Source: Alphaproteobacteria bacterium (GTDB lineage: Bacteria; Pseudomonadota; Alphaproteobacteria; Rhizobiales; JAKIUO01). From it: 35,069 nt of DNA. The position numbers and the translations under genes are program-made. The stretch's first letter is position 1. The number at the start of each line of letters is the position of its first letter. Of the stretch, positions 12,275 to 35,069 are shown piece by piece. The stretch lies in the NCBI GenBank assembly GCA_024279115.1, contig JAJRRW010000084.1:1-35069 (forward strand), in the 5' to 3' direction. The notes below the pieces were generated by a model. That model made no database searches. It was not told where the DNA came from and saw nothing but the letters and a program-made list of their open reading frames with translations.

Positions 12275-14554
12275 ATGCCATCACGCAAAGACAAACTTGG
12301 ATGTACTGACGAAGACGCCCTTCATTTCCACACCATGGACGGCAAGCCGGGCAAGCTGGAAATCTGCCCCACCAAACCCATGGCAACACAGCGCGACCTG
12401 TCTTTGGCCTATTCTCCAGGGGTCGCGGCCCCCGTGCGCGCCATCGCGCAAGATCCCGGCAAAGCCTATGACTATACCAACAAGGGTAATCTGGTTGCCG
12501 TGATCACCAATGGCACCGCCATTCTTGGACTTGGAGATTTGGGCGCATTGGCAGCAAAGCCGGTGATGGAAGGCAAGGCCGTCTTGTTCAAGCGCTTTGC
12601 CGATGTCGACAGTATCGATATTGAAATTGATACCACAGACGCCGAGCAGTGTATCAATTCGGTGCGCTATCTCGGCCCCAGCTTTGGCGGCATCAATCTC
12701 GAAGACATCAGCGCCCCCGATTGTTTCATCATCGAACAAGAACTGCGCGAAGTGATGGATATTCCGGTCTTTCATGACGATCAGCACGGCACGGCGATCA
12801 TCTCGGCTGCCGGTCTCATCAACGCCATTGATCTCACGGGGCGCAACATCAAAGACATCCGCATGGTGGTGAACGGCGCGGGCGCTGCGGCCATTGCCTG
12901 CATTGAACTGGCCAAGAGCATGGGCGTGCCCCACAATCATGTGACTTTGTGCGACAGCAAAGGCGTCATCTACAAGGGACGCAAAGAGGGCATGAACCAG
13001 TGGAAATCCGCCCATGCCATCGAAACGGATGACCGCACCCTCACCGACGCCATGACCGGCGCCGATGTGCTTTATGGCCTGTCCGTTGCCGGAGCTATTT
13101 CTGCGCAGATGGTGGACAAAATGGCCAAACGGCCCATTATTTTCGCCATGGCCAATCCCGATCCTGAAATCACTCCTGAAGAAGTGCTGGCCATCCGCCC
13201 CGACGCCATCATGGCAACCGGGCGCTCTGATTATCCCAATCAGGTCAATAATGTACTGGGCTTTCCCTATATATTTCGCGGCGCCCTTGATGTGCGCGCC
13301 AGCGCTATTAATGATGCCATGAAGATTGCCGCCGCCCGCGCTCTTGCCGAACTGGCCCGCGAAGATGTGCCAGACGAGGTGGCCGTCGCCTATGAGGGCG
13401 CACGTCCTCAATATGGTCCAGAATATATTATCCCGGCACCTTTTGACCCTCGCTTGATCCACAAAATTCCCGTCGCCGTCGCCAGAGCGGCCATGGATAC
13501 CGGCGTTGCCAACAAGCTGATTGTCGATATGGACGCCTATGAAGCCCGCCTGTCCGGTCGCCTTGATCCCGCCGCCTCTATCTTGCAAACGATCTTTGCC
13601 AAGGTCAGGCGCGACCCCAAGCGGGTGGTGTTTGCCGAGGGAGAAGAGGAACAGGTGGTGCATGCTGCCAACGCCTTTTTGAACGCTGGTCTTGGCCAGC
13701 CAGTGCTGGTCGGGCGTGCCGAAAAAATCGAACAGGCCTTTGAAAAAGCCGGCATCAAGCGCCCCGCAGAAATCGAAATTCAAGCCGTCGAAGCGGGAGA
13801 AGGCAACAAGCAATATGTTGACTTTTTCTATGAGCGCAATTGGCGCAAGGGCTTTTTATATCGCGATTGCGCCCGCCTGGTGCGCCTTGATCGCAATGTG
13901 TTCTCGTCGTGCATGGTGGGCATGGGACATGCCGATGCCATGGTCACGGGCCTCACCCGCAACTGGTATATCTCCTATAAAAATGTCCAATATGCCCTTG
14001 ATCAAAAACCCGGCCGCACGGTTATTGGAGTTACCCTTGCCATCAATAAGGGGCGCACCGTATTGCTGGCAGACACGGCCATTCACGAAACCCCCAACCC
14101 AGAACAACTCGCTGACATCGCCATCGAAGCCGCCAGAGCAGCGCGCCGTTTTGGCTATGAACCCCGCGTCGCCATGCTGGCCTATTCAACCTTTGGCTAT
14201 CCCAAGGGACAAAGCGCCGGGCGCATGAAAGAGGCGATCAAAATTCTTGATCATCGCGGTGTCAATTTTGAATATGACGGAGAAATGGCTGCTGACGTCG
14301 CCCTCTCTTCCAAAGCCATGGCACTCTATCCCAATTGCCGCTTGTCCCAACCGGCCAATGTGCTGGTCATGCCGGGCTGGAACTCGTCCTCGGTGTCCAT
14401 GAAAATGCTGGAGACCCTGGGCGGCAGCACCGTCATCGGGCCTATGTTGGTGGGGCTTGAAAAACCGGTGCAAATCGCCAATTTTGGAGCCAGTGACAGC
14501 GATCTGGTGAATCTGGCTGCCATCGCCGCCTATGATGCCGCCGACAACAGCTAG
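12275..14554 (+). CDS. maeB: NADP-dependent malic enzyme fused to phosphotransacetylase-like domain
   Basis: Oxidatively decarboxylates malate to pyruvate with NAD(P)H formation. The frame is open from 12194, but the ATG at 12275 ([19 protein letters not shown]) fits the family start and gives 759 aa, the length of the rhizobial TME/DME enzymes. The N-terminal malic domain shows [35 protein letters not shown], the Lys in [13 protein letters not shown] and the metal-binding FHDDQHGTA. The NAD(P) domain shows [12 protein letters not shown] and [14 protein letters not shown]. From about residue 430 a phosphotransacetylase-like domain follows ([35 protein letters not shown]), which in characterised relatives lacks acetyl-transfer activity and may bind acetyl-CoA as effector. 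Links the glyoxylate-shunt product malate to pyruvate. NADP over NAD preference is by family only. Confidence 0.95.
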
Positions 14555-14588
14555 AAAGATTGGGTCGTGTCTCATTTTAACTATTAAA

Positions 14589-14713
14589 GCGCCCCGGACC
14601 AGCAAAATTGCGGGAGCGGTTTTGTGCCGAGCCGGGGCAAAGGGGCGCATGCACGAAGGGTTTGCCTGTTTGCCCCTGGATCCCGGGGCAAGCCCGGGAA
14701 GCGAACTATTTCA
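14589..14713. repeat. Dispersed structured intergenic repeat, copy A
   Basis: This 125-bp element between maeB and the GST gene has a second copy at 33471-33593 in the same orientation. By hand alignment about 98 of the first 110 positions agree without gaps. Both copies keep nested inverted repeats: GCGCCCC with GGGGCGC (14589-14595/14642-14648), GCCCCGG with CCGGGGC (14591-14597/14632-14638), and CCCGGG-gcaag-CCCGGG near the right end. The left flanks also share GGTCGTG and a T/A-rich stretch. The element encodes no plausible protein; open frames through it on the minus strand (reading MRPFAPxRHKTxPA) are by-products. It looks like a non-autonomous dispersed repeat of the kind seen in alphaproteobacterial genomes. 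Confidence 0.8.
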
Positions 14714-14794
14714 AACGCAGACACTATTAAAATTTGACAAACTCAACGTAATCGTTCTATTTTTGTTCTTGATCAGAAACGCAAGGAACCTGAC

Positions 14795-15505
14795 ATGCTT
14801 GAACTTCATCAGTTTCGCAAACAGTTCGACCTTCCCAACCCCAGTCCCTTTTGTATAAAAGTCGAGGCTTTTCTGCGCCTTGCCGGTATAGAATATGAGA
14901 CCCAACTGGTCACGGATCCTGGCAAAGGCCCCAATGGCAAGGCGCCGTGGATCATTGATGAGGGCAATACCATTCCCGACAGCCGCTTTATCATTGATTA
15001 TCTAAACCGCAAGCATGGCGATCCGCTGAAAGGTGATCTAAGCGACCAACAACTCGCTCACCACCATGCTTTGGGGCGCATGCTCGATGAAAGTACCTAT
15101 TGGGCCATGGTCTATGAGCGCTGGATCATCCCTGAAAATGCCCCGACCATCAAAGAAGCCTTTTTTGGCTCCCTGCCCGCTCCCGTGCGCAAACTGGTTT
15201 TTATCGTCGCCCAGCGCGGCGTCAAACGGTCATTGCATGGGCAAGGCACCGGGCGTTTGTCAAATGACGAGATATGCCATCTGGCCAAAACAGATATGGA
15301 TGCCCTGTCTCTCATTTTGGGTGATCAGCCCTATTTCGGCGGGAAAAAAGCCGCCGAGATCGACACAACGACCATGGCCTATATTGCCAGCTTTATAAAA
15401 TCGCCTGTCAAGTCAGCGATCCAGGATCACCTCAAAACAAAAGACAATCTTGTTGCCTATCATCAACGCATGATGAAAGAGGTGTTTCCCGAATTTGCTG
15501 CGTAA
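14795..15505 (+). CDS. Glutathione S-transferase family protein (Fax/metaxin-like)
   Basis: 236 aa with a thioredoxin-like N-terminal domain (MLELHQFRKQFDLPNPSPFC, then IKVEAFLRLAGIEYE) and a helical C-terminal GST domain (about 90-225; ILGDQPYFGGKKAAEIDTTT is the typical segment before the last helices). SPFC at the active-site turn and the KAPWIID motif followed by DSRFIIDYL are typical of the Failed-axon-connections/metaxin-like GST group that bacteria also carry. Substrates are unknown; a glutathione-linked role is inferred only from the fold. AAGGA precedes the ATG with good spacing. It stands alone after the dispersed repeat and ends in a strong terminator shared with the convergent chemoreceptor gene. 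Confidence 0.85.
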   Translation: MLELHQFRKQFDLPNPSPFCIKVEAFLRLAGIEYETQLVTDPGKGPNGKAPWIIDEGNTIPDSRFIIDYLNRKHGDPLKGDLSDQQLAHHHALGRMLDESTYWAMVYERWIIPENAPTIKEAFFGSLPAPVRKLVFIVAQRGVKRSLHGQGTGRLSNDEICHLAKTDMDALSLILGDQPYFGGKKAAEIDTTTMAYIASFIKSPVKSAIQDHLKTKDNLVAYHQRMMKEVFPEFAA

Positions 15506-33356: not shown

Positions 33357-33470
33357 ATCGAAAAACCTTGTTTACCTGTGTTTTATGATTTGTTTCCAAA
33401 ACAGGTAAAGCCAGCAGAGCAAAATGGCAAGTCCGCTCTCTTTTTTGGTCGTGCCCCAGTTTGAATAACG

Positions 33471-33593
33471 GCGCCCCGGACCAGCAAAAACGCGGGAACG
33501 GTTTTGTGTCGGACCGGGGCAAAGGGGCGCATGCACAAAGATTTTGCCTGTTGGCCCCTGGGTCCTGGGGCAAGCCCGGGACGCAATCATTTC
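33471..33593. repeat. Dispersed structured intergenic repeat, copy B
   Basis: Second copy of the element at 14589-14713, same orientation, located between leuB and the ABM-fold gene. The outer inverted repeat GCGCCCC/GGGGCGC (33471-33477/33524-33530) and GCCCCGG/CCGGGGC (33473-33479/33514-33520) are unchanged. The right hairpin reads CCTGGG-gcaag-CCCGGG, where a C-to-T change still allows G-T pairing, hinting that structure is kept. The left flank shares GGTCGTG and CAGTTTGAATAA-like sequence. Confidence 0.8.
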
Positions 33594-33630
33594 ACCCGGA
33601 AAGCCATCATTACAAATATAGACACCATCC

Positions 33631-33963
33631 TCATTTTTGAAAATCATAGGCGCGCTCGACTTTGGCGATCTGCAAAGAAAAACGGGCATACCACTTGTCT
33701 TTGCCCAGCTGTTGGGCGTGCAGATGTTCGCCTTGGCGTTTCCACGCCGCGATCGCGGCCCGGTCGCGCCAATAGGAGACCGTGATGCCAAACCCGTCAG
33801 CGCTGCGCGTGCTGTGTGATCCCAAAAAACCGGGCTGTTGCGCGGCCAGCTCGTCCATGTGCACCGCCATGCGCTGATAGCCTGCTTCATCATCTTTTGT
33901 GCGTTGAGCGGTAAAAATAACGGCGTAATAGGGAGGCTGGGGCAGTTTGGCAAAGTCACTCAT
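33631..33963 (-). CDS. ABM-fold small protein (antibiotic biosynthesis monooxygenase family)
   Basis: 110 aa from the ATG at 33961-33963 (MSDFAKLPQPPYYAVIFTAQ); the frame extends further upstream but would overlap the next gene. The dimeric alpha/beta ABM pattern is visible: YAVIFTAQ, YQRMAVHMDELAAQQPGFLG, GITVSYWRDRAAIAAWKRQG and HLHAQQLGKDKWYARFSLQI. Relatives include haem- or quinone-modifying monooxygenases, but many have no known substrate. It follows the 73-aa membrane protein by 10 bp, forming an operon with leuD. The ribosome site is weak (AGAG). Confidence 0.85.
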   Translation of the reverse strand: MSDFAKLPQPPYYAVIFTAQRTKDDEAGYQRMAVHMDELAAQQPGFLGSHSTRSADGFGITVSYWRDRAAIAAWKRQGEHLHAQQLGKDKWYARFSLQIAKVERAYDFQK

Positions 33964-33973
33964 AAAAAAATCT

Positions 33974-34195
33974 CTATGACAGTTTGAGCGCCAATGCCCC
34001 GACAAAGCTGGCAACGCCAATGATCAACAAGGCGATGGCCGCGCCTGGCAATGATTTTTGTCCCTGCGAGCGCCGCTTCATGGCGGCATAGATCACCAGC
34101 ATGAACAAAAAGGCGGCCAGGATAAACAATCCAAGCGACAGTCCTTGCACCACCTCAGGGGCCAGTCCCCATGCGTTTGTTGCGGCCATTTCCAT
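33974..34195 (-). CDS. Small two-helix membrane protein
   Basis: 73 aa from the ATG at 34193-34195, with AAGGGG eight bases upstream. Two transmembrane helices are clear: LSLGLFILAAFLFMLVIYAA and AAIALLIIGVASFVGALAL, with a basic loop MKRRSQGQKS between them, predicting both ends in the periplasm. No family recognised. It lies 31 bp after leuD and 10 bp before the ABM-fold gene, so all three are probably on one transcript. Confidence 0.7.
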   Translation of the reverse strand: MEMAATNAWGLAPEVVQGLSLGLFILAAFLFMLVIYAAMKRRSQGQKSLPGAAIALLIIGVASFVGALALKLS

Positions 34196-34832: not shown

Positions 34833-34979
34833 GATATGTGATCCTTGTTGTTGCTGATCAGCGCGCTTGTACCGCGCCCAACCACAGATGCCATACTCGC
34901 GCAATCAATGCAAACCAGACCGCCAAAAGGGTAGTGTCTCAGTTTGAAATCAATTTGAATATAGTAGCCTGCCGCCGCG

Positions 34980-35041
34980 GTCTGAAATGTCTTCGCCAGA
35001 CGGGCTGCCTATGCAGCAGGCACCAAAGGCCAAGCCTTTGG
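34980..35041. other. Three consecutive hairpins at the right edge, upstream of leuD
   Basis: GTCTG/CAGAC (34980-34984/34997-35001), GCTGC-ctat-GCAGC (35004-35017) and CCAAAGGC-caa-GCCTTTGG (35023-35041) follow each other with only 2-5 bases between them. GCCTGC near 34967 can also pair with GCAGGC around 35016-35021, enclosing the first two. This could be a structured RNA, a leader of leuD on the minus strand, or part of a dispersed repeat. The remaining bases to the window end show no gene. Confidence 0.4.
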
Positions 35042-35069
35042 AAACCATTTGATAACAGGGGGTTGGGGA

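Follow-up and report, generated by a model that had tools for sequence, protein, structure and literature searches.

The repeat and its gene context

The window, a stretch of 35,069 nucleotides from an alphaproteobacterial contig, carries two copies of an intergenic repeat in the same orientation, which a repeat search recovers as 114-nt segments at 14589-14702 and 33471-33584 with 89% identity (101 of the 114 positions). The inverted repeats that an initial annotation had described in them are present in the letters of both copies. Copy 1 starts 8 bp past the stop codon of maeB, whose product has the NADP-dependent malic enzyme as its best NCBIfam match, at a score below the cut-off, and the gene on its other side is GST-like, again with a best NCBIfam match below the cut-off. 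Copy 2 lies upstream of leuB (above the NCBIfam cut-off), at the stop codon of a minus-strand frame. Both window copies are located at gene ends, in positions that look neutral and seem to leave the genes intact. Among plasmids, the best hits to the maeB region come from Shinella, Methylobacterium and Neorhizobium, which suggests an alphaproteobacterial origin. The window was compared with its own assembly (G000; 2.83 Mb in 145 contigs) and with four congeners (G001 to G004). The features considered below, with the complete repeat termed element A and a second miniature element termed element C, are as follows:

14555-14562, no strand: left target duplication of copy 1, AAAGATTG, directly after the maeB stop codon; the empty site of G001 has AAAGTTTG
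14563-14728, plus strand: copy 1 of element A, 166 bp, flanked by maeB and the GST-like gene, delimited by the alignment of 11 copies and by its target duplication; empty site in G001 and G003
14563-14589, plus strand: left terminal inverted repeat of copy 1, an IS1-type end whose outermost 20 bases agree with GGTAGTGTCTCAGTTTGAAA at 15 positions
14588-14704, plus strand: double-hairpin palindromic core of copy 1, common to repeats without IS1-type ends
14703-14728, minus strand: right terminal inverted repeat of copy 1, an IS1-type end whose outermost 20 bases, read inward, agree with GGTAGTGTCTCAGTTTGAAA at 16 positions
14729-14736, no strand: right target duplication of copy 1, AAAATTTG; its last 3 bases are the first three of the TTGACA promoter-like hexamer before the GST-like gene
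14734-14763, plus strand: sigma-70-like promoter match before the GST-like gene, a consensus match only (1 found, 0.5 expected in shuffles)
33439-33446, no strand: left target duplication of copy 2, TCTTTTTT
33447-33629, plus strand: copy 2 of element A, 183 bp long owing to a 19-bp insertion, delimited by the alignment of 11 copies; empty site in G001, G002 and G003
33631-33638, no strand: right target duplication of copy 2, TCATTTTT, which includes the stop codon of a minus-strand frame at 33631-34020
34930-35069, plus strand: the initial 140 bp of a second IS1-type miniature element, C, which the contig end truncates

Copies, boundaries and target-site duplications

The notion of a two-copy element did not survive a search of the whole genome: a 141-bp query found 41 places in G000, 11 of which, with the query's own place counted, are full-length at 83-100% identity; the others include a few partial or diverged matches, and most correspond only to the ~30-nt CCCGGG hairpin. 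The 40 other genomes searched gave short matches in four, two of these belonging to the same genus. The alignment of the 11 full-length copies extends at both sides past the coordinates initially drawn, which had hit upon a real repeat and stopped short of its terminal repeats, with which it spans 14563-14728 and 33447-33629. All 11 copies share a left end, GGTCGTGTCTCATTTTGAATATTAAAG, and a right end that reads inward as GATAGTGTCTGCGTTTGAAATAGTTCGC; the element measures 165-166 bp in ten of them and 183 bp in window copy 2, the latter because of its 19-bp insertion, and over this range of 165-183 bp none of the 11 encodes a transposase. Their pairwise identity of 76-98% suggests that the copies are fairly old. 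The idea that the window copies form a special pair was rejected: their identity across the whole element is 82%, less than the 89% that copy 1 reaches with others.

Compared with each other, the left and right ends of element A agree at 11-16 of 20 positions (4-9 of 20 differ), and the terminal inverted repeats are therefore imperfect. The flanks, where the initial annotation had proposed to look for target-site duplications, do carry 8-bp duplications. Across the 11 copies the mean flank identity is 5.73 of 8, as against 2.41 of 8 for mismatched flanks (110 pairs); at least six of eight identities are seen in 8 of the 11 copies and in 1 of the 110 mismatched pairs; and agreement is maximal at length 8 (0.72, versus at most 0.47 at any other length in the range 2-12). 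The exact duplication AAAATTGG flanks one of the copies. Three of the 11 show a weak duplication or none in the fixed register (3, 3 and 4 of 8), namely a copy on contig C19 that adjoins other insertions, window copy 2, and a copy on contig C85. For window copy 2 the agreement rises from 4 of 8 to 7 of 8, as judged by eye, if the duplication is shifted by one base from the consensus end.

Empty sites in congeners

We compared the sites of both window copies with the four congeners and found an empty site for copy 1 in two of them (G001 and G003) and for copy 2 in three (G001, G002 and G003). At copy 1 the matches end at 14562 and resume at 14729 (G001) or 14730 (G003), overlapping by 8 and 7 bp respectively: the window reads CTAG-AAAGATTG-(166 bp)-AAAATTTG-ACAAA, and the congeners are continuous, with CTAG-AAAGTTTG-ACAAG in G001 and CTAA-CAAGTTTG-ACAAG in G003. 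At this site G002 has different DNA and G004 gives no match, neither being continuous across the joint. At copy 2 the matches in G001, G002 and G003 overlap by 8, 6 and 6 bp, with joints at most 4 bases from the assigned element ends, and the intergenic DNA of G004 does not align. Both window copies are insertions at the joints predicted from their ends. These untouched landing sites in close relatives establish the repeat as real mobile DNA, and sites before and after insertion are now available for element A in sister species.

The same comparison bears on a reading without transposition, in which the copies would be intergenic repeats inherited from an ancestor or would have arisen by recombination or gene conversion. 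Such an origin would be compatible with the age of the copies (76-98% mutual identity) and with an assembly in 145 contigs, but it is contradicted by the congener empty sites at the predicted joints, which are strong for the two window copies, and by the 8-bp duplications, and we regard it as extremely improbable. In place of an isolated and immobile pair we find 11 full-length copies and empty sites, and the miniature mobile element that the initial annotation had offered as one possibility is borne out by the terminal inverted repeats, the 8-bp target duplications and the empty orthologous sites in congeners.

IS1-type ends and related transposons

Together the 11 copies have 22 ends, which agree with the end of an IS1-type transposon at 14-18 of 20 positions (2-6 mismatches), i.e. 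they are similar and not identical to it, and their placement by fuzzy match to the element A consensus somewhat favours this similarity. A transposon on an Acidiphilium plasmid combines the same type of end with an exact target duplication (AAGCCGAG), an MPKGPRGEKRP frame and an IS1-like transposase, which passes the cut-off of the Pfam model DDE_Tnp_IS1 (32.3 bits against 24.1) and remains below that of the NCBIfam IS1 model (64.9 bits against 100). Similar ends bound related transposons of Hoeflea, Mesorhizobium and Methylocapsa; 8-bp duplications were recognized by eye in the first two (GATGATTG in Hoeflea and CGCTGGTG in Mesorhizobium), and the flanks of the Methylocapsa element, which were also examined, show no target duplication. 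Like element A, the transposons from these four genera have ends of the form GGTA..G...TCAGTTTGAA, and 8-bp duplications, as in element A, accompany three of the four (two of these by eye). They differ from it in being ~2.6-4.2 kb long and carrying a transposase and further genes, whereas element A is 166 bp long and has no transposase. Duplications of 8 bp are also given for ISAba3, an IS1-family relative with an end starting GGTGGTGTTTCA (PMC6382973). The exact end GGTCGTGTCTCATTTTGAA occurs at 2 loci among 84,980 genomes, a set that possibly excludes the window's own genome and in which ~1.9 loci are expected by chance, and at 0 loci among viral contigs.

A search for an IS1-type transposase in the window's own assembly gave 0 matches, a weak sign of its absence given that the copies of a transposon of this kind may be collapsed at contig ends. 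In the congener G002 the C-terminus of a transposase (50% identity over 44 aa) lies at an IS1-type end. The end of contig C62 shows an IS1-type end followed by a frame starting MPKGPKGEKRP, and it is not element C; this end, together with the start of the short frame, suggests a candidate autonomous copy. One plasmid record with a similar end codes for an IS1595-family transposase, which prompted us to consider mobilization by an IS1595-type system; this was rejected on the basis of 0 matches to PF12762 in the genome and of the IS1-like transposase encoded by the complete Acidiphilium element. As a separate observation, a small frame of the type MPKGP(K/R)GEKRP is found in the Acidiphilium IS1-type transposon (L088:3279-3509) and begins at the C62 contig end (L051, L185); the Acidiphilium protein of this type has no Pfam or NCBIfam match.

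Element C, which begins close to the right end of the window, is 246 bp long when complete, has ends that mostly read GGTA(G/T/A)TGTCTCAGTTTGAAA, of the type that bounds the Acidiphilium transposon and that the ends of element A resemble, and is present in closely similar copies in the same genome. Complete copies at C35:3760-4005 and C87:20751-20996 are flanked by exact 8-bp duplications detected by script (AATAAATA and CAATAGCA, respectively), and a third, on C19, has GGCTGTCC on both sides, as seen by eye. Among 19 genome matches to the element C end, 8 face a contig end that lies 121-141 bp away, the window's right end and the C62 end described above being two of them, and element C therefore probably breaks the assembly. 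A group of IS1-type transposons is hence linked to two miniature families, A and C, within one genome.

On this evidence element A is very probably a MITE-like non-autonomous element in which IS1-type ends surround a double-hairpin repeat, and which an IS1-type transposase would move in trans. Consistent with its being a MITE, it has terminal inverted repeats and an 8-bp duplication, is short and devoid of a transposase gene, occurs in several copies, and has inserted into sites that are empty elsewhere. Imperfect terminal inverted repeats of ~20-27 bp and of IS1-family type flank the double-hairpin repeat, which constitutes the whole cargo. In the mechanism that we propose, an IS1-type transposase would insert the element in trans, a step that appears well supported. 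The core would have been captured between the IS1-type ends, as is suggested by its existence without them, and the CCCGGG hairpins would have arrived with it.

The double-hairpin core with and without IS1-type ends

The CCCGGG hairpin is matched 54 times in G000 (with the copies inside element A counted), 24 times in G004, twice in G001, once in G003 and not at all in G002; a control with the reversed pattern gave 0 in all five genomes. In G004 none of 14 distinct copies of the core (13 loci) carries an IS1-type end on its left when up to 6 mismatches are allowed, and the one right-end match, at 6 mismatches, is at a level also reached by some shuffles of other loci. For G000 we classified the ends around 57 core matches in 58 stretches against 285 shuffles. 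An IS1-type left end (at most 6 mismatches) accompanies 17 of the 57, as against 3 of the 285 shuffles, and 13 of those 17 also have an IS1-type right end at up to 7 mismatches, a level that 11 of the 285 shuffles reach on that side. A different left end, of the CTAGTGG type, is found with 25 of the 57 and with none of the 285 shuffles, and the remaining 15 have neither type. Since cores devoid of IS1-type ends are found in both G000 and G004, the core is independent of element A. Searched against plasmids, it gave 1 weak match.

Another family of repeats around the same core has a start like CTAGTGG(C/T)CTGCCTCTCTTAAATTGATGGGTATCGCAATTTG, with some copies ending in GGCCACTAG (L132-L135, L138, L144-L146, L150-L152, L155, L157, L162, L166, L176, L179). 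A short repeat starting CTAGAGCGGTTTGC(A/G)TTC lies beside several such elements (L024, L026, L027, L201) and is also found in the congener G001.

Of all 81 hairpin matches, 40 have T-A as their outer pair, 38 have C-G and 3 have something else, and the inner pair is G-C in 52, C-G in 16 (all in G004) and something else in 13. Two pairs of the CCCGGG hairpin hence covary in the wider core family, the copies being related, such that these counts are of sequences and not of events.

An independent core raises the question of what the moving unit is. It could be the core itself, mobilized in the manner of a REPIN by a Y1 (RAYT) transposase, with the IS1-type ends merely incidental, and the core, like a REPIN, does pair two inverted palindromes, has a covarying CCCGGG hairpin, and occurs without IS1-type ends in G000 and in G004 (0 of 14 with such a left end). 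However, Y1 (PF01797) has 0 matches both in G000, with its 54 core matches, and in G004, with its 24 (an assembly only 88% complete), and G001, with 25 Y1 matches, has 2 core matches. Furthermore, the boundary and the 8-bp duplications of the 11 copies are located at the IS1-type ends and not at the core, and the two tested empty-site joints likewise fall at IS1-type ends, rendering mobilization of the core by itself very unlikely. Some of the 25 Y1 transposase matches of G001 contain internal stops.

With transposition at the IS1-type ends as the preferred account, a broader and tentative possibility is that one double-hairpin core has repeatedly been taken up as cargo by unrelated miniature transposons of a single lineage, with IS1-type ends in one case and CTAGTGG-type ends in the other. 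If true, the core would hitch-hike and spread through changes of carrier, with no transposase of its own. The nested core offers a tractable case for studying how palindromic intergenic repeats may spread in this way.

Conservation of the alternative hairpins

The initial annotation had stressed two alternative pairings in the left half of the repeat, GCGCCCC/GGGGCGC and GCCCCGG/CCGGGGC, and had seen in their mutually exclusive nature a sign of selection for structure. Both pairings are indeed kept in the two window copies, but this does not extend to the family, in which only 2 of 11 copies have GCGCCCC intact. A T stands in the middle of this motif in 9 of the 11, where it breaks the alternative pair in 8 copies and leaves a T-G pair in 1, and selection through mutually exclusive pairing is unsupported for element A. 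Considered pair by pair, six of the seven pairs in the GCCCCGG/CCGGGGC stem are each retained by 10 or more copies, and the first pair is standard in 3 of 11; in the GCGCCCC/GGGGCGC alternative the middle pair is standard in 3 of 11 and the other pairs in 8-11 of 11. RNAalifold applied to the 11 copies returned +0.69 kcal/mol as the covariation term and a double change in 2 of 48 pairs, which lends no support to covariation within element A.

These results weigh heavily on the view that element A is a structured RNA or regulatory element (a switch, an attenuator or a terminator) under selection for hairpins that exclude one another. Taken singly, three copies fold better than their shuffles (z = -2.73, -2.94 and -2.45), the middle parts of the two window copies fold alike, and both window copies adjoin stop codons, all of which would suit such a function. 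Better-than-shuffle folds would, however, be expected anyway from a palindromic core placed between inverted ends. Beyond the altered GCGCCCC and the small number of compensated pairs, the copy L004 folds unlike the window copies, a scan of 14480-14860 found no terminator-like site, the window has no match in Rfam at gathering scores, and the empty sites show insertion. We consider a role of this kind very unlikely; an RNA function is unsupported, and none is needed to explain the repeat. A documented mobile element thus takes the place of a possible RNA switch. The case illustrates how the hairpin letters of two copies can mislead, the apparent conserved pairing being absent from the other nine full-length copies.

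Comparison with known systems

A literature search on element A, on IS1-type MITEs in Alphaproteobacteria and on nested MITE/REP arrangements returned no title or abstract describing element A among the matches listed. The RIME of rhizobia is a palindromic repeat that may, from its description, be set beside the core of element A; no paper about RIME was among the matches listed by a search for it. The Bru-RS1 and Bru-RS2 repeats of Brucella are palindromic and 103 and 106 bp long (PMC10800456), and, compared by description, they resemble the core in size and palindromes. REPINs (PMC3116915) are like the core in comprising an inverted pair of palindromes with a spacer, but they are linked to RAYT genes, whereas the genome with element A has 0 Y1 matches and element A has additional transposon ends. 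Element A as a whole may be compared with bacterial MITEs such as MITEAba12, which is 111-114 bp long with ISAba12-type ends and 9-bp duplications (PMC6382973): both are short, have terminal repeats in common with an insertion sequence and are flanked by target duplications. Element A differs from MITEAba12 in its IS1-type ends, its 8-bp duplications and a separate repeat as its cargo. The more unusual side of element A is precisely this cargo, which is another repeat that occurs with other ends too.
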